A stretch of 64,000 nt of DNA from Haloplasma contractile (GTDB lineage Bacteria > Bacillota_I > Bacilli_A > Haloplasmatales > Haloplasmataceae), in the NCBI GenBank assembly GCA_016841945.1, contig JAENYC010000021.1, positions 1 through 64,000 of the forward strand, read 5' to 3'. Positions within the stretch are counted from its first letter, which is position 1, and each line of letters opens with the position of its first letter. This document shows, one piece after another, positions 4,841 through 16,651 of this stretch. The notes beneath the pieces are model-generated. The model made no database searches. It was not told the DNA's origin and worked only from the letters and a program-made list of their open reading frames with translations. The position numbers and the translations under genes are program-made.

Positions 4841-5662
4841 ATGAAGAAACGGGATAAAAGAGCACAAATTGTCATCATAGAAAATGGACAATATGTTTTA
4901 TTAAAACAACATTATAAAAAAGAAAATCATTTTTTTTGGGTTTTACCTGGAGGAGGGAAAGAGGACGAGGAGACGATAGAGGAAGCAGCGATACGTGAGG
5001 CCAAAGAAGAAACAGGTTTAGATATAAAATTGCTCCCTTTTATATATGAGTTTTCTTTAGGTGATAAAGACAGATTATATAATAAAAAGGTGACCTTAGT
5101 CGGATATCCTATACAAGGTGATGTGAAGTTAGGATATGATTCTGAAGAAGATAGGCGCTTATGGTTTAATCTTGTTGATATTAAATGGCATCCAATAAAA
5201 GACATTGAAAATATTGATGCTATTACAAGACAAGATGTATTACCAGTAAAGTCTTATCTTGAAAATAATGATTTTGTGAAAAGAGCGGGTACACTTGTTT
5301 ATAAAGAAGAAGCAGGGAAGGTAAAATATTTACTCGTATCGATGCGTCATCATCCAAATAAGTATACGATACCTCAGGGACATGTAGAAAAAAATGAAAC
5401 CTATATAGAAACAGCAATAAGAGAAACTAAAGAAGAAGGTGGCGTGCTTACAGAAATTGAGAAGGATTTAGGGTATTTTTTTTATGAAAATAAAGAAAAA
5501 ATTTATCAAACCTACATATATTTAGGAAAATTTATAAAGAAGGTAATGCCCATAGAAAGTAGAGATGTTAAATGGCTATCATTTGAAGAGACTTTAGCTT
5601 TAGATATTCCTAAGGAAGCAAGACGCTTTTTAACAGAAATAAATCAAGAAATGAGGGATTAA
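4841..5662 (+). CDS. Protein with two tandem Nudix hydrolase domains
   Basis: 273 residues carrying two complete Nudix boxes. The first is at residues 38-60, with REAKEETGL after GGGKEDEE. The second is at residues 180-201, with RETKEEGG after GHVEKNE. Each keeps the metal-binding RExxEExG core, so both domains should cleave nucleoside-diphosphate-X substrates. The second domain begins near residue 148 with GTLVYK, like diadenosine-polyphosphate or mRNA-type Nudix enzymes. Single-domain Nudix proteins are the norm, so the fusion is notable. The gene ends directly against the ATG of a methyltransferase, which implies translational coupling. Substrates cannot be told from the sequence. Confidence 0.85.
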   Translation: MKKRDKRAQIVIIENGQYVLLKQHYKKENHFFWVLPGGGKEDEETIEEAAIREAKEETGLDIKLLPFIYEFSLGDKDRLYNKKVTLVGYPIQGDVKLGYDSEEDRRLWFNLVDIKWHPIKDIENIDAITRQDVLPVKSYLENNDFVKRAGTLVYKEEAGKVKYLLVSMRHHPNKYTIPQGHVEKNETYIETAIRETKEEGGVLTEIEKDLGYFFYENKEKIYQTYIYLGKFIKKVMPIESRDVKWLSFEETLALDIPKEARRFLTEINQEMRD

Positions 5663-6558: not shown

Positions 6559-7017
6559 TTATTGTGATGAACTCAGTAGTTTTTTAATGAGTGAATCTAA
6601 TCTTTGAATTCTTGTATCTTCTTTTTTAGCACTCATGATTTTATTTATTTCTTCTTTTTTAATATAATGAGGAAGCGCATTAAATGCTTGTAGTAAATCA
6701 GCGTTATGTTTTAATTTTTGAATGATGATATCAGGAATTCTTAATGTTTTAATTTCGTCATTTAGTTCGAGTTTTACATGAATGGTATCTCCTCTTTTTT
6801 TCTTTAGAATATTTTGAAAATCCTTATTAAATACCATATAATGACCATTCTTACTCGGTAATAAAATTCCTTCTAATTGATAATCATCAATAAAGGTTTT
6901 AACATATACCCTTCCGTTAATCCCAAAAGCTTCTTTAACTGAAAACGGAATATAGAAGATAGTCCAATGAAGTTTCCCTTCTATTTTTACTAATTCTGCA
7001 TCAAATTCATAAATCAT
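6559..7017 (-). CDS. DUF1905 / YdeI-OmdA-like protein
   Basis: 152 residues. The first ~85 residues are a small beta-barrel of the DUF1905 type (VKTFIDDYQLEGILLPSKNG and FNKDFQNILKKKRGDTIHV). The C-terminal half, NADLLQAFNALPHYIKKEEINKIMSAKKEDTRIQRLDSL split over two helices, matches the 'bacteriocin-protection' YdeI/OmdA helical region. The molecular function of the family is not settled; members are linked to stress and peptide resistance. It is a single gene, convergent with the GNAT relic. Confidence 0.8.
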   Translation of the reverse strand: MIYEFDAELVKIEGKLHWTIFYIPFSVKEAFGINGRVYVKTFIDDYQLEGILLPSKNGHYMVFNKDFQNILKKKRGDTIHVKLELNDEIKTLRIPDIIIQKLKHNADLLQAFNALPHYIKKEEINKIMSAKKEDTRIQRLDSLIKKLLSSSQ

Positions 7018-7092
7018 TTTTCTTCCCCCTTCATTATATTTATTTAATTATAATTTATAAAAACAACGAATTCAATAAGATTGGTGGTACAT

Positions 7093-8280
7093 ATGAGAAT
7101 AACAAAAAAACAAGCACGACTATTTTTACTTTATTATCAAGATTTATTAATGCCAAGACGCCTGTGTAATAAAGATGGTATGATGAAATTCATGTATAAA
7201 GTGGGATCTATTCAATATGATCCTTTAAGTATTATTGACACAAATCCTAATCTTGTGTTTCAGTCAAGAGTAAAGAATTATCAATCAAATCTTTTATATG
7301 AATTATTGTATGAAGATAGATTATTGATTGATGATTGGGATAAGAATCAAAGTATTTATCCAATAAAAGATTGGCCATATTTTAGACGATATCGACAAAA
7401 AGGGTTAAGAACTCATTCAAAAGTTGATTTAAGTCAACATGAAATAATAAATGACATAAAATCAATCATCAAAAAGAGAGGTCCTATATCTTCAATTGAT
7501 ATTAATGATGATAAAAAAGTTGATTGGTTTTGGAATCATACAAAATTATCAAAAGTAGCGCTCGAAAGTATGTATATATGGGGTGATTTGGTTATTTCTC
7601 ATAAGGAAGGTGTGAGAAAATACTATGATTTAGCAACCCGAGTCATTCCTAAAGATATCTATGAAATGAGTGATCCAAATAAATATCTAGAAGATTTTTT
7701 TAAATGGATAGTTAAAAGAAGGATTGGTAGTGTAGGATTACTATGGAATAGGGGCAGTAATGCTTACTTAGGGATTTATTTTATGAAGAGTAAAGAAAGA
7801 AATCAGGCATTCAAATCTCTATATGATAATAATAAATTAATTGAAGTTGAGGTTGAAAATATTAAATATCCTTTATATATCCGTAAAGATGATGAATGGA
7901 TGTTATATGAAGTTATAGATGGATTGAATTACATAAAAACAGTATCTTTTATTGCACCACTTGATAATATCATGTGGGATAGAAAACTGATTAAGGCTTT
8001 ATTCGATTTTGATTATACATGGGAAGTATACAAACCTAAAAAACAAAGATTATATGGATATTATGTTTTACCTGTTCTATATGGAGATAGTTTTATTGGA
8101 CGAATAGAACCAGTTTTTGACAAAAAATCTAAAACACTAAAAATCAAAAATTTTTGGTTTGAAGATGATGTGAAAATAAATAAAACATTAATTCAAAAAA
8201 TTGAAAATGCAATCGAAAAATTTGCGAAATATTTAAATGCATCTAATATACAATATATATGTAAACTAGATAAAAAATAG
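7093..8280 (+). CDS. YcaQ/AlkX-like DNA glycosylase (HTH_42 winged-helix family)
   Basis: 395 residues with the family layout: KKQARLFLLYYQDLL at the N-terminus, GSIQYDPLSII around residues 38-48, multiple winged-helix modules (KLSKVALESMYIWGDL, RRIGSVGLLW) and a C-terminal FIAPLDNIMWDR and PVLYGDSFIGRI region. YcaQ of E. coli unhooks interstrand crosslinks and alkylated bases. Its family carries a Q-hydrophobic-D catalytic motif, matched here by Q41-Y-D43. The ATG at 7093 has GGTGGT just upstream; an upstream TTG at 7081 lies within the ribosome site. A role in repair of bulky or crosslinked bases is inferred. Confidence 0.8.
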   Translation: MRITKKQARLFLLYYQDLLMPRRLCNKDGMMKFMYKVGSIQYDPLSIIDTNPNLVFQSRVKNYQSNLLYELLYEDRLLIDDWDKNQSIYPIKDWPYFRRYRQKGLRTHSKVDLSQHEIINDIKSIIKKRGPISSIDINDDKKVDWFWNHTKLSKVALESMYIWGDLVISHKEGVRKYYDLATRVIPKDIYEMSDPNKYLEDFFKWIVKRRIGSVGLLWNRGSNAYLGIYFMKSKERNQAFKSLYDNNKLIEVEVENIKYPLYIRKDDEWMLYEVIDGLNYIKTVSFIAPLDNIMWDRKLIKALFDFDYTWEVYKPKKQRLYGYYVLPVLYGDSFIGRIEPVFDKKSKTLKIKNFWFEDDVKINKTLIQKIENAIEKFAKYLNASNIQYICKLDKK

Positions 8281-8308
8281 AACTTATATTAAAAAAAATA
8301 AAAAATTA

Positions 8309-8344
8309 TTGACATCTTATAAACAATCACGTAATATGTTTATA
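8309..8344 (+). promoter_or_regulatory. Promoter with embedded inverted repeat (DUF2087-operon operator)
   Basis: TTGACA at 8309-8314, exactly 17 bp, then TAATAT at 8332-8337. A perfect 8-bp inverted repeat TATAAACA (8318-8325) and TGTTTATA (8337-8344), spaced by 11 bp, covers the spacer and the end of the -10. A related half-site (ATAAACAT) follows. A repressor bound here would block RNA polymerase; the HTH protein encoded next is the obvious candidate. Confidence 0.7.
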
Positions 8345-8373
8345 GATACAATAAACATAGAAGGTGATTATTT

Positions 8374-9129
8374 ATGGATTTTCAAGAAATATTTTGGAGT
8401 TCCTCATTAGAGGATTTGAGAAATGGTTTTGTATATTTGGAGGATGAGGAAGTTTATATCTGTTTATGTTGTTGTGAAATATTTGAGAGTGGAATGGTCT
8501 ATCAAGTTCATGGAAAAATGATGGATGCTAGAAAAGCTATTTCAAGACATATAGAATTAAAACACAAATCTATGTTCCATTTTTTAATTGAAATGGATAA
8601 AAAATATACTTCACTGACAGATAATCAGAAAGCACTCATGTTAAAATTTTATGAGGGACGTAATGATAAAGAAATCGCTAAAGAGATGGGTACAAGTTCA
8701 TCAACCATTCGAAATAAAAGATTTACGTTAAGAGAAAAGGGAAAACAAGCTAAGATATTTTTAGCAATTATGAACTTATTAGAAGATAAAATGAAAGTTG
8801 TCAAAGAGGATAAGTTCATTTCCATTCATCGGAATGCAACGAATGTAGATGAACGTTATGCGATTACAGAAGGTGAAAGGAAGACTTACTTGAAAAATTA
8901 TTTTCAAAATAAAAGGTTAATTAGTTTTCCTAAAAAACAAAAACGAATTATAGTTGTTCTTCAACATATCTGTAGTTTTTTTAAAACCAATCAAGTATAT
9001 ACTGAAAAGGAAGTCAATGAAATATTGAAAAAAGTCTATCCTGATTATGTCACAATAAGAAGATATTTAATTGAATATGGATTCCTCAATAGAAAAAGTG
9101 ATGGTAGTGAGTATTGGGTGAAACTATGA
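8374..9129 (+). CDS. Zinc-finger / HTH / DUF2087 transcriptional regulator
   Basis: 251 residues in three parts. An N-terminal CLCCC...RHIELKH arrangement (about 36-68) looks like a C2H2-type zinc finger. A sigma-4/LuxR-like helix-turn-helix at about 80-125 reads LTDNQKALMLKFYEGRNDKE then GTSSSTIRNKRFTLREKGK. A C-terminal DUF2087 domain (about 185-251) reads LISFPKKQKRIIVVLQHI and ends GFLNRKSDGSEYWV. It is the first gene of a three-gene operon; its stop overlaps the next start as ATGA. The inverted repeat in its own promoter suggests autorepression. DUF2087 has no firm function; its pairing with HTH domains points to regulation. Confidence 0.75.
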   Translation: MDFQEIFWSSSLEDLRNGFVYLEDEEVYICLCCCEIFESGMVYQVHGKMMDARKAISRHIELKHKSMFHFLIEMDKKYTSLTDNQKALMLKFYEGRNDKEIAKEMGTSSSTIRNKRFTLREKGKQAKIFLAIMNLLEDKMKVVKEDKFISIHRNATNVDERYAITEGERKTYLKNYFQNKRLISFPKKQKRIIVVLQHICSFFKTNQVYTEKEVNEILKKVYPDYVTIRRYLIEYGFLNRKSDGSEYWVKL

Positions 9130-9917
9130 GTAAAGCAGTTGAGAACTATTTAGATAAGAATGGAAAAATAAAGGTATTACCGTCTAAACAAAAAAAGAGG
9201 AGAAATGTATTATCATATCTTGCTTCTAAATTTCAATATAATCGTATTTATAATGAAAAAGAAGTGAATGAAATTATCAGTTTATATCATTCTTATAATG
9301 ATTATTTTATATTAAGAAGAGAATTAATTGAACATCGCTTCTTAAGAAGGACTTTAGATGGTTCAAGATATTGGAAAGCTGATTTAATACCGACTCAAAT
9401 TGAGACTAATCGATTATTGATTAGAAATAGTAGGCTAGAGGATGAAATTGCATTAATAGATGTTAATCGAAGTTGTACTTATGTAGACTATTATACGGGT
9501 ATGAACTCAAAGGATGAAAATATCCACACGATGCTTACAAAAGGAGATTTACCTCCTAATGGTGATAAAATATTTTATCAATGTAAAACTATTTTACTAA
9601 AAGATACAAAAAGAATAATTGGATATTTCGATTATTATCAAGGTTATCCAGATTATTCTACATTATGGGTTAGTATCTTTAATATTCACAAGAATGATCA
9701 AAAGAATGGTTATGGATATGAGGGAATGCATGCATTTACTGAAAGTATAAAAATTTGTCAGTTTAATAAAATCAGTATTGGTGTTCATTTAAAGAATTGG
9801 CAAGCGATTAGGTTTTGGGTAAAAAATGGTTTTAATCAGATAGAAGGTATTTATGGTGATAGAGAATATAATGAAAATAGTTATAGTGTGATGGCACTAA
9901 CTAAGGTGATAAGATGA
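9126..9917 (+). CDS. DUF2087-GNAT fusion protein
   Basis: 263 residues from the ATG of an ATGA overlap. Residues about 15-85 are a second DUF2087 copy (VLPSKQKKRRNVLSYLASKF, ending FLRRTLDGSRYW), clearly related to the tail of the upstream regulator. From about residue 90 a GNAT acetyltransferase of the RimJ/RimL type follows (IETNRLLIRNSRLEDEIALI, DQKNGYGYEGMHAFTESI, NWQAIRFWVKNGF). The acceptor is unknown. It is the middle gene of a coupled operon and its own stop overlaps the next start. The shared DUF2087 domain suggests both proteins read the same signal or bind each other. Confidence 0.75.
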   Translation: MSKAVENYLDKNGKIKVLPSKQKKRRNVLSYLASKFQYNRIYNEKEVNEIISLYHSYNDYFILRRELIEHRFLRRTLDGSRYWKADLIPTQIETNRLLIRNSRLEDEIALIDVNRSCTYVDYYTGMNSKDENIHTMLTKGDLPPNGDKIFYQCKTILLKDTKRIIGYFDYYQGYPDYSTLWVSIFNIHKNDQKNGYGYEGMHAFTESIKICQFNKISIGVHLKNWQAIRFWVKNGFNQIEGIYGDREYNENSYSVMALTKVIR

Positions 9918-10648
9918 AGATGATAGCTGAAACAGACTTGTTTTTACCGGTAAAAGAATTACTTATTAAAAACGGTTATTCGGTTTATAGTGAAATTGAG
10001 CATTGCGATATAGTGGGTAAAAAAAATGAAGTCATTGTTATTGTTGAATTAAAAAAAAGATTAAATCTTGATTTAATCTTACAAGCAATAAAAAGACAAA
10101 GATTATCTGATACAGTATTTATTGCGATTCCTCAATCGAAAACAATGAAACAAAGAAGATGGAAAGATTTATTATTACTCATTAAAAGATTAGGATTGGG
10201 ATTAATCTGTGTACATTTATACCATGAACCTTATGCTGAGGTGGTTATTGAACCATCCCTATTCGAAATAAAGAAAAGTCAACAACTAGCGAAAAGAAAA
10301 AAAGAGAAATTATTGAAAGAAGTTAGTGGGAGAAGTCATGATGTGAATATAGGGGGGAGCTCTAAGCAAAAAATTATGACAGCGTATAAAGAGGCTTCAC
10401 TATATATCGCCTGCCTACTACAAATATTAGGGCCATTATCGCCTAAGAAACTTAGATCCTATGGTTCTCATCCCAAAAAAACCAACTCGATTTTATATAA
10501 AAATTTTTATAACTGGTTCTATCGTGTAAAAACAGGTGTTTATGATTTAACCAAGGAGGGAGAAAAGGTTATCAAAGAGTATAAAAATATCACAGAATTA
10601 CAAAAAAAAGAGATAGAAATGAAGATTAAAACTGTTAAAAATAGTTAA
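9914..10648 (+). CDS. DUF2161-type PD-(D/E)XK phosphodiesterase-like protein
   Basis: 244 residues. The N-terminal core, EIEHCDIVGKKNEVIVIVEL followed by KKR, shows D-(x)n-E-x-K, the catalytic pattern of PD-(D/E)XK nucleases. VFIAIPQSKTMKQRRWKDLL and LGLGLICVHLY follow as in DUF2161 proteins. A C-terminal winged-helix-like segment (KIMTAYKEASLYIACLLQI, then LGPLSPKKLRSYG) could bind DNA. It is the third gene of the DUF2087 operon, with ATGA coupling. DUF2161 proteins are annotated as phosphodiesterases but are poorly characterised. Confidence 0.75.
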   Translation: MKMIAETDLFLPVKELLIKNGYSVYSEIEHCDIVGKKNEVIVIVELKKRLNLDLILQAIKRQRLSDTVFIAIPQSKTMKQRRWKDLLLLIKRLGLGLICVHLYHEPYAEVVIEPSLFEIKKSQQLAKRKKEKLLKEVSGRSHDVNIGGSSKQKIMTAYKEASLYIACLLQILGPLSPKKLRSYGSHPKKTNSILYKNFYNWFYRVKTGVYDLTKEGEKVIKEYKNITELQKKEIEMKIKTVKNS

Positions 10649-14481: not shown

Positions 14482-14511
14482 AAAAAACGATTTGAAAATT
14501 TCAAATCGTTT
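14482..14511 (-). terminator. Terminator of selD-mnmH
   Basis: Thirteen-bp perfect stem (14485-14497 with 14499-14511) followed by a U-tract on the minus strand. The mnmH stop codon lies within the stem. Confidence 0.85.
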
Positions 14512-15604
14512 CCACCGTATATTTTTGGTTAATATAATCCATTACTTCAGATTCATTTCCTTTAAATAATATCTTTTTATTTGTTGTTTCAATTTGATAT
14601 TGATACATAGGGTCATAATATTCTTTTAAAAGTATATAAATCCAATTAATATGTTTGGTGTTATCTCCAGTTTTTAATTGATTATTGAAAGCAAGCTCAA
14701 ACTCATTTAATACTTGTTTATAACGTAGTCCACCTAGTCGCTTTTTGATTTTATTGATACTATTTATAATATAACGAGACCACATTGATAGACCGTCATC
14801 TAAATAATATTGATTGTATAGTTTTTGAGATTCAATCACATATTCTTTGACCGTTTGATCTAATCTTTTTTCAAAGGGTATATCTAATAATATTAACTTT
14901 CCACTATTGAAAAATTCTGCTAATGGTTTAGGAATAAAACACCTTCCTATATGAGACCCTTCATCTTCAAGGAGGATGTATCGATAATTTCTATGTTTAT
15001 GGTTTATAAGTGAATAGGCTAAATTGTTTTCAAAATTACTTTGAGTTGGTTGTGGGGTATGGAACCTACCAAATGAAGAACCTCTATGATTAGCCAGTGC
15101 TTCTAGGTCAATAAAATGATTAAAGTGTTTTAATAAATCTGTTTTACCAGAACCAGTATATCCTCCTAATAGAATCGGAATCCCGTTTTGTCTACTAGGG
15201 TCTAAGGCTTGGATTAGATAATGACGAAATGCTTTGTATCCTCCCTTTAAACGAGGGATGTCTTTGCCAATTGCTTCTTTTAACCACGCTTGACATAATG
15301 AGGAACGTTGTCCACCTCTAAAACAATAAATCGCACTGTTTGGATATTGTTTAAGATGTCTTATCCAAGCTTTAATTCGTGTTTGTTTCGTCTCACCTGA
15401 TACTAATTGATGACCTAATTTAACGGCTTCTTTTTCACCATGTTCCTTATAGCATTTACCGACCAAATGTCTTTCATAATCATTTAAGATAGGTAAATTG
15501 ACAGCATTTAAAAACGCTCCTTTTTCATATTCCTTTGGTGCTCTAACATCAATCAGTGGGGTATTTTCAATAACGATTTTTTTAAAATCATTTGTTAAAG
15601 ACAT
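14501..15604 (-). CDS. mnmH: tRNA 2-selenouridine synthase
   Basis: 367 residues. The N-terminal rhodanese domain has the active Cys at about residue 94 (YCFRGGQRSS). The P-loop domain has GGYTGSGKT near residue 147. This pairing is diagnostic for MnmH (SelU/YbbB), which geranylates 2-thiouridine at wobble position 34 of certain tRNAs and exchanges it for selenium from selenophosphate. It sits 15 bases behind selD, which makes the selenium donor. The start at 15604 has GGGAAG 8 bases upstream; an in-frame GTG at 15613 lies in the ribosome site. Both catalytic motifs are intact. Confidence 0.92.
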   Translation of the reverse strand: MSLTNDFKKIVIENTPLIDVRAPKEYEKGAFLNAVNLPILNDYERHLVGKCYKEHGEKEAVKLGHQLVSGETKQTRIKAWIRHLKQYPNSAIYCFRGGQRSSLCQAWLKEAIGKDIPRLKGGYKAFRHYLIQALDPSRQNGIPILLGGYTGSGKTDLLKHFNHFIDLEALANHRGSSFGRFHTPQPTQSNFENNLAYSLINHKHRNYRYILLEDEGSHIGRCFIPKPLAEFFNSGKLILLDIPFEKRLDQTVKEYVIESQKLYNQYYLDDGLSMWSRYIINSINKIKKRLGGLRYKQVLNEFELAFNNQLKTGDNTKHINWIYILLKEYYDPMYQYQIETTNKKILFKGNESEVMDYINQKYTVETI

Positions 15605-15619
15605 AGATGACACTTCCCA

Positions 15620-16651
15620 TTATATTACTTTAATTAATTTATCACTAAGTTTTCTCGTATAACCAATCGATTGAAGATCTAGACCATATTTTTTGGTGAT
15701 GTTTAAGAAATCATTAACACTTTTCTTTTTGACAATCACTAATAAACCTCCTGATGTTTGTGCATCACACAAAACATATCGTTTATCATCTGACATGTCC
15801 TCTAATGTATGTCCATAGCTTTTAATATTATTTCTTGTTCCTCCTGAGACACAATCCATATTCAAGTACTTGATGGTATTTGGTAATAGTGGAACTTTAT
15901 CATATTGAATGGTTGCTGATATTTGACTGCCTTTACAGATTTCACCCAAGTGACCTAAAAGTCCAAATCCTGTAACATCTGTTAAAGCAACGACTCCATC
16001 TAGTGAAGAAATCTTAGAGCCAATTTTATTCAATGTACACATTGCATTAATGGCAGGTTCTATATCGCCTGTTTCTATTTTCTTTCTTTTTTGAGCAGTT
16101 GTTAAAATTCCAATTCCTAGGGGTTTTGTCAAGAATATTTCACAATCAATTTCTGCTTTATTATTTTGTTTTAAGTGTTTATTTTCAACCACTCCTGTAA
16201 CAGCCAAACCAAATATTGGTTCCTTTGAATCAATTGAATGTCCACCAGCAAGTGGTATATCAGCAACTTCACAAACATCTCGTCCACCTTCCACAACTAA
16301 TGATGCGACTTCAGGTGATAGTGTATTAATTGGCCAACCTAAAATTGAGATTGCCATTAAAGGCTTTCCTCCCATGGCATAGATATCACTTAATGCATTC
16401 GTTGCTGCAATTTTACCAAAGGTATATGGATCATCAACGATAGGCATAAAAAAGTCCGTTGTACTTAAGATAGAAGTGCCATTACCCAAATCATAAGCTG
16501 CCGCATCATCATTACTATTATTGCCAACTAATAGTTGTGGATAATTGATTGTATTTCTCGTTGTTTTTAGAATTTCGTCTAATATGGCTGGTGAGATTTT
16601 ACAACCACATCCAGCACCATGACTATATTCTGTTAATTTTATATCTTTCAT
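15620..16651 (-). CDS. selD: Selenophosphate synthetase (selenide, water dikinase)
   Basis: 343 residues. HGAGCGCKI at residues 11-19 supplies the catalytic Cys15 (the Cys/Sec position) and Lys18. NNSNDDAAAYDLGNG, DIYAMGGKP and GGHSI are further SelD motifs, and the C-terminal AQTSGGLLV is conserved. It makes selenophosphate from selenide and ATP. Being the Cys form, it needs no Sec decoding. Adjacent mnmH shows that tRNA selenouridine is at least one use of the product; selA and selB are not in this window. Confidence 0.95.
   Translation of the reverse strand: MKDIKLTEYSHGAGCGCKISPAILDEILKTTRNTINYPQLLVGNNSNDDAAAYDLGNGTSILSTTDFFMPIVDDPYTFGKIAATNALSDIYAMGGKPLMAISILGWPINTLSPEVASLVVEGGRDVCEVADIPLAGGHSIDSKEPIFGLAVTGVVENKHLKQNNKAEIDCEIFLTKPLGIGILTTAQKRKKIETGDIEPAINAMCTLNKIGSKISSLDGVVALTDVTGFGLLGHLGEICKGSQISATIQYDKVPLLPNTIKYLNMDCVSGGTRNNIKSYGHTLEDMSDDKRYVLCDAQTSGGLLVIVKKKSVNDFLNITKKYGLDLQSIGYTRKLSDKLIKVI

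Follow-up and report, generated by a model that had tools for sequence, protein, structure and literature searches.

A DUF2087 regulator with a conserved two-palindrome operator heads a three-gene operon in Haloplasma contractile

Within a 64,000-nucleotide stretch of the Haloplasma contractile genome (the window; positions 1 to 64,000, 28.5% GC, from a genome of 3.43 Mb), three overlapping genes encode a regulator that ends in a DUF2087 domain (gene 1), a fusion of a second DUF2087 domain to a predicted GNAT acetyltransferase (gene 2) and a DUF2161 protein (gene 3). We find that the operator in front of gene 1 consists of two RAAC-N12-GTYT palindromes of equal geometry set on a near-consensus promoter and that, judged from the upstream regions of its relatives, it is ancient within a widespread family of uncharacterised regulators. 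Because this two-palindrome operator is Bacillota-wide and overlies the near-consensus promoter of the regulator itself, there is good support for the predicted autoregulation, which is most likely autorepression; the self-regulation claimed in an original prediction, which was made from this DNA alone, is borne out by the recurrence of the operator upstream of the same regulator across Bacillota. We think it rather likely that the three genes form a small autoregulated detoxification or stress operon. The features are collected in Table 1.

Table 1. Operator, promoter and genes of the operon, in window coordinates
Feature	Position	Strand	Remarks
-35 hexamer TTGACA	8309..8314	+	from the sequence; position conserved relative to the operator
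-10 hexamer TAATAT, spacer 17	8332..8337	+	from the sequence; position conserved relative to the operator
Operator palindrome 1, half-sites A and B: TATAAACA-N11-TGTTTATA	8318..8344	.	spacer into the -10 end
Operator palindrome 2: half-site C ATAAACA (8351-8357), degenerate half-site D TATTT (8369-8373)	8351..8375	.	up to the start codon
Gene 1, regulator	8374..9129	+	candidate Zn-type motif C30/C33/H59/H64, LuxR-like HTH ~78-137, C-terminal DUF2087 181-249, predicted winged helix
Gene 2, DUF2087-GNAT	9126..9917	+	DUF2087 15-83, predicted GNAT ~96-240, QKNGYG acetyl-CoA-type loop
Gene 3, DUF2161 protein, predicted PD-(D/E)XK-type	9914..10648	+	E6, E27, D32, E45-x-K47, Q57

Taken alone, the repeats in the window are weak evidence. 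The repeat first described there is indeed perfect, TATAAACA at 8318-8325 pairing with TGTTTATA at 8337-8344, but it does not lie strictly between the -35 and the -10 as had been claimed, since the first base of its right arm is also the last base of the -10. A second perfect repeat, of 9 bp, pairs 8335-8343 with 8351-8359. When the 93-bp region 8281-8373 was shuffled, an arm of at least 8 bp arose in 141 of 1000 base shuffles and 107 of 1000 dinucleotide-preserving shuffles, the corresponding counts for 9 bp or more being 50 and 42 of 1000; shuffles of the 37-bp promoter core gave an 8-bp arm in 17 or 34 of 2000. Half-site D was read by hand at the spacing of 16 found in the relatives and has one mismatch to TGTTT. 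Among the Haloplasmataceae relatives (G001 and G003-G006; G000 is the window's own genome), the left half-site ATAAACA is identical in G001, G003 and G004, and the exact right half-site is found in the window and G004 alone.

The recurrence of the operator was examined in 82 upstream regions: those of 80 named relatives of the regulator, retrieved with an alignment of seven sequences, plus those of the window and G001. Almost all of the 80 loci are labelled Bacillota (the exceptions are metagenome-assembled genomes, L114 of Actinobacteria and L167 of Spirochaetales), and L112 and L113 are from Haloplasmataceae; at least 347 relatives of the regulator were confirmed by scan. With a 44-bp matrix that was seeded with the window site and holds 31 bits of total information, the operator scores more than 8 bits in 78 of the 82 regions, and with leave-one-out training it scores at least 15 bits in 74 and at least 10 bits in 77. 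Dinucleotide-preserving shuffles reach 15 bits in 0 and 10 bits in 2 of 820 cases. Regions upstream of other open reading frames (ORFs) from the same loci do so in 5 and 8 of 671 cases, and by their coordinates all five of the ORFs with at least 15 bits are divergent neighbours that have their intergenic region in common with the regulator. Matrices fitted to five shuffled sets with two seeds each found 0 to 32 sites and at most 17.5 bits of information, and when similar upstream regions were held out as clusters, 75 of the 82 still scored at least 15 bits. The full matrix gives the match in the window itself (8317-8360) 31.6 bits, and 27.2 bits remain when the four family members are removed from training; no other place in the 64 kb reaches 15 bits. 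The operator is independent of the cargo, that is, of the genes that accompany the regulator, being present in 28 of 32 loci with a GIY-YIG-like gene and in 45 of the 48 remaining loci.

The geometry of operator and promoter is fixed as well. In the 78 aligned promoters, which have the spacing TTGACA-N17-TATAAT, the -35 matches TTGACA at four or more of six positions in 59 (perfectly in 27), and the -10 matches TATAAT at five or more positions in 54. The half-sites of the relatives are an AAAC in the spacer and, at a distance of 16, a TGTYT over the end of the -10, with a third half-site, again AAAC, about 31 bp behind the first. Behind this third half-site the first TGTYT lies at 16 in 47/78 and none was scored in 26, while a TGTYT occurs between the site and the start codon in 60/78, compared to a mean of 8.4 and a maximum of 15 after shuffling.

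We infer a repressor because a consensus promoter carries sites both in its spacer and downstream of the transcription start. The regulator might instead be a positive autoregulator, an activator acting from the spacer to remodel the promoter, and one palindrome does lie in the spacer; moreover, BtmL, a genetically studied DUF2087 protein, is described as raising transcription of its target (PMC7113386). We consider an activator unlikely, however, since most of the promoters have a near-consensus -35 and -10 at 17 bp and need no activator, and since the expected transcription start precedes the second palindrome.

Beyond the regulator's own promoter, a strict form of the operator pattern and its reversed control match, respectively, 4 and 2 places in G000, 3 and 1 in G001, 1 and 1 in G003, 2 and 1 in G004, and 3 and 2 in G005. 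A pattern allowing one mismatch shows no excess over the reversed control in G001 (16 versus 16), G003 (7 versus 8), G004 (13 versus 12), G005 (9 versus 14) or G290 (11 versus 16). A large regulon in G000 was rejected, as none of the 29 other one-mismatch places there, all of them rescored, reaches 15 bits (the best, at 14.5, is intragenic). In G006, apart from the exact sites and the regulator's own, four of the one-mismatch places were rescored; none of the four exceeds 7 bits, and the third exact place (C9:29166; 14.8 bits) is intragenic.

Two other G006 sites lie in front of GNAT genes. A GNAT 45% identical to that of gene 2, unlinked to the regulator, has a 28-bit operator and a short, remnant-like frame upstream of it, and a divergent GNAT/O-methyltransferase pair lies on another operator, which scores 28.9 bits toward the GNAT and 15.7 bits toward the methyltransferase; this O-methyltransferase shares 59% identity with the gene that immediately follows the regulator in L134. 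What is cargo in one lineage thus seems to be a remote target of the regulator in another, in support of both the operator and a shared function. At the first of these places (L085:7039-7950) the operator is followed by a short, decayed-looking frame with EKEVND and then by the GNAT, as if a regulator or a DUF2087 had been lost. In G290, the regulator is followed by a stand-alone DUF2087 gene that itself has an operator-like site (L090:6596-6639; 22.5 bits).

The DUF2087 domain of gene 1 matches PF09860 with 96.8 bits (E 8e-28, residues 181-249; the Pfam cut-offs are 22.4 bits for PF09860, 20.7 for the GNAT profile PF00583 (Acetyltransf_1), 23.5 for GerE and 27 for PF09929). Residue conservation makes the N-terminus a candidate Zn-type motif: among 57 aligned regulators, that of the window included, C30 is kept in 57, C33 in 55 and H59 and H64 in 56 each. 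The helix-turn-helix (HTH), at about 78-137, is LuxR/sigma-4-like and scores 18.0 bits with GerE, below the cut-off; in an AlphaFold model made with 57 sequences (mean predicted local distance difference test, pLDDT, 93.9) its predicted fold stands as LuxR-like, without formal GerE membership. A Foldseek search with the whole chain gave no match at E ≤0.001, and comparison to solved structures by sequence gave weak HTH matches and coiled-coil noise alone. The DUF2087 domain is modelled in the order helix-helix-helix-hairpin, that of a winged helix, a reading that rests on the predicted order of secondary structure and on weak winged-helix rows from Foldseek because the HTH fills the rows from VIA-align.

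E211, D224, R229 and R230 (gene 1 numbering) are invariant in 54 of 54 DUF2087 domains, both window domains included, a set that covers regulators, fusions of ArsR type, stand-alone proteins and enzyme fusions. Because the presumed recognition helix keeps its arginines despite these differing partner domains, the comparison argues for a DUF2087 that would read one shared ligand or nucleic-acid feature and not gene-specific operators. The domain could bind nucleic acid rather than receive a signal, and nucleic-acid binding has been proposed by others (PMC7113386, citing Rigden 2011). Where plasmid records annotate the regulator, they call it merely a 'DUF2087 domain-containing protein'.

Gene 2 carries the same domain (PF09860, E 1.5e-24, 86.3 bits, residues 15-83), followed by a GNAT acetyltransferase that is predicted from both the profile and the loop motif. 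The loop of GNAT enzymes is Q/R-x-x-G-x-G/A; the acetyl-CoA-type loop of gene 2 is QKNGYG (192-197), and that of the G001 fusion, which is 58% identical, is QHKGQG. The presence of DUF2087 on both a regulator and an acetyltransferase, which the original prediction had emphasised, is confirmed, and the DUF2087-GNAT link is recurrent, because there is a fusion of reverse domain order in Deinococcus, there are GNATs behind the regulator in Clostridia, and the GNATs of G006 stand under operators unlinked to the regulator. The Clostridia GNATs lie directly behind the regulator in L115 and L122 and after an O-methyltransferase in L134; among these and the Deinococcus GNAT, the pairwise identities reported are 28-42%. 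A scan with gene 2 as a single protein found no relative.

We rejected the idea that the gene 2 domain is a recent duplicate of the regulator's DUF2087. In a tree of 76 columns, many of whose inner forks are open, it groups with support of 100/98 with domains from G001, G003, G005, Clostridium oryzae and the GNAT-DUF2087 protein of Deinococcus aetherius, and not with those of the regulators, which lie elsewhere. The group also holds a Deinococcus protein on a long branch and a G050 fusion whose N-terminus is unidentified; a second DUF2087 of G290 falls outside it. The C-terminal part of the second gene of C. oryzae looks like an APH-like kinase by inspection alone, and Pfam gives DUF2087 alone.

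Gene 3 matches PF09929 (E 5e-34, 117.3 bits) and is predicted to be a PD-(D/E)XK-type protein with a nuclease fold. The D..ExK residues are intact in all aligned sequences: E6, E27, D32, E45, K47 and Q57 are invariant in 9 of 9, including six relatives from viral contigs at 25-27% identity, and D32, E45 and K47 are also kept in 6 of 6 in a separate alignment. The model of gene 3 has a mean pLDDT of 62.8 and is confident mainly for residues 1-113, most of the C-terminal half being below 55. With VIA-align its N-terminal core superposes on 3dnx, which we take to be an MmcB-like protein (Z 11.7, root-mean-square deviation (rmsd) 3.3, 120 aligned residues, 20% identity), and on XisH 2okf (Z 9.9, rmsd 2.7, 106 aligned). 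Four of the first five Foldseek rows are PD-(D/E)XK-type with a probability of 0.95-0.99, none at E ≤0.001. Comparison of gene 3 to solved structures by sequence gave nothing meaningful; among its best rows were entries for a methyltransferase, RNase HII, beta-2-microglobulin, a bromodomain and a designed helical protein (E 0.0024). The nuclease-type fold proposed for gene 3 is thus upheld by the D..ExK residues and the core model, and its linkage to the regulator is limited to one family. Ten viral-contig loci (L239-L248, IMG/VR) hold DUF2161-like proteins; the aligned ones keep D..ExK and differ in the C-terminal part.

The three genes, encoding 251, 263 and 244 amino acids, are joined by ATGA overlaps at 9126 and 9914, a layout in which coordinates and Pfam matches agree with what was first described, and the overlap at the downstream junction of the regulator recurs in G001, G003, G004 and G005. 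Besides the window, the complete three-gene form was found in one genome, G001. In these two the second gene has the GNAT attached, whereas in G003 and G005 it consists of DUF2087 alone (about 90 amino acids) and in G004 it is missing; DUF2161 adjoins the regulator operon in G000, G001, G003 and G004 and lies apart in G005 and G006 (4 of 6 family genomes with both). A three-gene unit conserved beyond Haloplasmataceae was not found: in a class sample of 296 genomes, DUF2087 and DUF2161 co-occur in 11 that are not of the family, and 0 of the 11 have them close together, several of these being fragmented drafts with the genes on different contigs. Among the 80 named loci, DUF2161 is beside the regulator in the two from Haloplasmataceae. 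Conserved linkage was therefore found for one part of the proposed module, DUF2087 with GNAT, which recurs beyond the family, and not for the other, since the link of DUF2161 to the regulator is seen in Haloplasmataceae alone; we treat DUF2161 as a local addition to the operon.

Several observations weigh against a self-repressing operon with a detoxification or stress function. For the operator, four of the 82 upstream regions (L126, L176, L184 and L191) remain below 10 bits with cluster hold-out; a site that overlaps the promoter suggests repression, yet some activators also occupy the spacer; the one-mismatch pattern exceeds its reversed control in G000 (30 versus 14) and G006 (27 versus 17), and these two genomes may hold further weak targets; and the DUF2161 loci in G005 and G006 have no operator of at least 15 bits. 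For the cargo, the GNAT match of gene 2 is modest (24.0 bits versus a cut-off of 20.7), and its GNAT is a distant relative of those in Clostridia and Deinococcus, at 19-28% identity. The flanking genes omdA, degV and, where present, alkZ are as syntenic as the operon itself, so linkage within the family is weak evidence. In 30 class loci DUF2161 has no constant partner, except for DegV, and that within Haloplasmataceae alone. Finally, 'detoxification' does not fit all cargoes, because the commonest neighbour of the regulator is a GIY-YIG-like gene, which lies next to it in 29 of the 80 loci and is fused to it in 3.

On another reading the regulator would control essentially itself, and GNAT and DUF2161 would be unrelated passengers that ride along, have no pathway in common and are swapped freely from lineage to lineage. 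The variety of cargo is what such passengers would give: GIY-YIG-like in 32/80, DUF6176 in 7, DinB in 4 (these two assigned by Pfam on one member each), a small Cys-rich protein in 4, DUF2161 in 2/80 and GNAT in 2/80 plus one more behind an O-methyltransferase; the 30 class loci without a constant DUF2161 partner beyond Haloplasmataceae also speak for it. We nevertheless judge it fairly unlikely, as the same O-methyltransferase and GNATs are found in G006 under the operator and unlinked to the regulator, and as GNAT-DUF2087 fusions are known in two domain orders.

The GIY-YIG-like proteins themselves keep the first motif (Gly in 23 and Tyr in 20 of 23 aligned proteins), and their second motif is mostly degenerate (Tyr in 2/23, Gly in 13/23); most of them may not cut. 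Regulator-GIY-YIG fusions were found in L164, L166 and L169 and on a Priestia plasmid (L215:2992-4146), the last with a GIY-YIG score above the Pfam cut-off.

The neighbourhoods of stand-alone DUF2087 genes in the class sample lean towards small-molecule-modifying enzymes, not uniformly. Such genes lie closely downstream of an alpha/beta-hydrolase-like gene in L100, L223, L225, L229 and L230, overlapping it in 3 of the 5; by inspection, we take these hydrolases to resemble dienelactone hydrolase. They lie beside a SAM methyltransferase in L098 (by Pfam), L226 and L231 (by likeness) and beside a GNAT in L099, and in L219 a DUF2087 is fused to a domain that looks isochorismatase-like by inspection. 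The remaining ones adjoin transporters, a radical-SAM-like gene or unrelated genes.

A gene for an AlkZ/YcaQ-like DNA glycosylase (7081-8280, same strand, PF06224 E 7e-47) ends 93 bp upstream of the regulator. It is kept in G001 and G003 and missing in G004, where the gap between omdA and the regulator is 236 bp. This neighbour raises an attractive reading, a response to a DNA-crosslinking genotoxin, in which the AlkZ/YcaQ-like enzyme would remove or unhook adducts, the GNAT would acetylate the genotoxin and an MmcB-like PD-(D/E)XK protein would process the lesion. MmcB is described as an SOS-regulated PD-(D/E)XK protein that confers mitomycin C resistance (PMC9578287), and 2 of 9 DUF2161 relatives weakly hit the MmcB-like profile PF06319, with a best E of 0.015; gene 3 itself has no match to it. 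At the likely place of the catalytic motif the AlkZ-like protein has Q-Y-D, to be compared to the QPhiD motif reported for YcaQ (PMC9040887), in which Phi is aliphatic, as Tyr is not. The reading is weak, and we hold it to be quite unlikely: the gene is absent from G004 and is not preceded by such an operator, the sole window site being that at 8317; AlkZ is not among the 25 commonest neighbours listed for the 80 loci, in which no search aimed at AlkZ was made; DUF2161 is behind the regulator in no locus of the 80 from outside the family; and the likeness to MmcB is weak.

The original prediction had also left room for a defence role, and an anti-phage module with a nuclease effector could be read from the pairing, within one operon, of a nuclease-fold protein with a regulator that binds nucleic acid, and from the 10 viral-contig loci with DUF2161 relatives. 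This role was not borne out, and we regard it as very improbable. PADLOC has no model that matches genes 2 and 3 at E up to 1, its matches to gene 1, at 13-16 bits, are to the HTH parts of Csa3/CasR/CARF models, and none of the eight window proteins that were scanned with Pfam resembles known defence genes, the neighbours of the operon among them being metabolic, repair or unknown. Detoxification or a stress response is the more likely role.

In the detoxification or stress operon as we picture it, gene 1, probably as dimers, would bind both RAAC-N12-GTYT palindromes over a strong promoter, one reaching from the spacer to the -10 and the other lying between the transcription start and the start codon, and would thereby keep its own operon repressed. 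It might be released when a stress or small-molecule signal reaches the Zn-type N-terminus or DUF2087, upon which the regulator, the DUF2087-GNAT and, in Haloplasmataceae, the PD-(D/E)XK protein would be made jointly by coupled translation. The GNAT could then neutralise the inducing compound by acetylation, and the DUF2087 of gene 2 might share the ligand or nucleic-acid feature of the regulator, or tether the enzyme; the DUF2161 protein would be a local recruit with a probable role in DNA processing. The genes, overlaps and domains, the conserved operator and promoter, the recurrence of the GNAT link and the intact D..ExK residues in this picture are computed.

More tentatively, and as a possibility that we find less probable than this operon-level reading, the Zn-LuxR-DUF2087 proteins could be unrecognised, Bacillota-wide autorepressors that answer a common class of toxic small molecules with swappable cargo, either modifying enzymes (GNAT, O-methyltransferase, DinB, DUF6176) or proteins of nuclease fold (GIY-YIG-like, PD-(D/E)XK), DUF2087 tying sensor to effector. 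The operator would then be of one ancestral two-palindrome type, and the DUF2087 borne by an enzyme would tie it to the ligand or nucleic-acid structure of the sensor.

The fixed architecture of operator and promoter tells experimenters which DNA to use and which genes to watch, and the operator site is probably functional at a distance from the regulator as well. In laboratory Bacilli, what DUF2087, this GNAT subfamily and DUF2161 do becomes approachable.

Other genes of the window surround the operon. A DUF1905-OmdA gene (bacteriocin-protection, YdeI-like; 6559-7017, minus strand) is syntenic in three relatives, and 4841-5662 encodes a tandem Nudix protein (PF00293, two stretches). Two adjacent genes at 14501-16651, on the minus strand, presumably encode tRNA 2-selenouridine synthase and selenophosphate synthase, to judge from the ORF translations.

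That the module was called undescribed is consistent with the open-access literature on DUF2087, COG3860, PF09860 and DUF2161, which, with subscription journals mostly uncovered, yielded no account of an operator or operon of the family. Known systems resemble parts of it. The HTH of gene 1 (78-137) superposes on that of DesR, of LuxR/NarL type, with Z 7.6 and an rmsd of 1.6 over 60 residues at 33% identity; in contrast to LuxR/NarL-type regulators, gene 1 has no receiver or autoinducer domain and instead has its Cys/His N-terminal part and DUF2087. In their core fold and metal-site residues, the MmcB-like protein, XisH (2okf/2inb), YaeQ and Hjc appear like gene 3, which differs in its extra C-terminal part, modelled with low confidence. 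The protein WP_264779003.1 on the Deinococcus aetherius plasmid pDAETH-5 has the same two domains as gene 2 in the reverse order, and the annotated regulator beside it is a short helix-turn-helix protein that, unlike gene 1, has no DUF2087 annotation. A LuxR-COG3860-GIY-YIG fusion of Symbiobacterium, noted in 2006 (PMC1564403), contains a regulator of the kind of gene 1, whereas the window has a PD-(D/E)XK protein and a DUF2087-GNAT and no GIY-YIG. A further parallel comes from BtmL of the bottromycin cluster of Streptomyces scabies, the sole genetically studied DUF2087 protein in the literature that we found (PMC7113386): like gene 1, it is a regulator of a small-molecule gene set with a C-terminal DUF2087, but it has an ArsR-like predicted N-terminal fold and raises the expression of one gene, whereas gene 1 has a candidate Zn-type motif, a LuxR-like HTH and an operator whose position suits the repression of its own operon.

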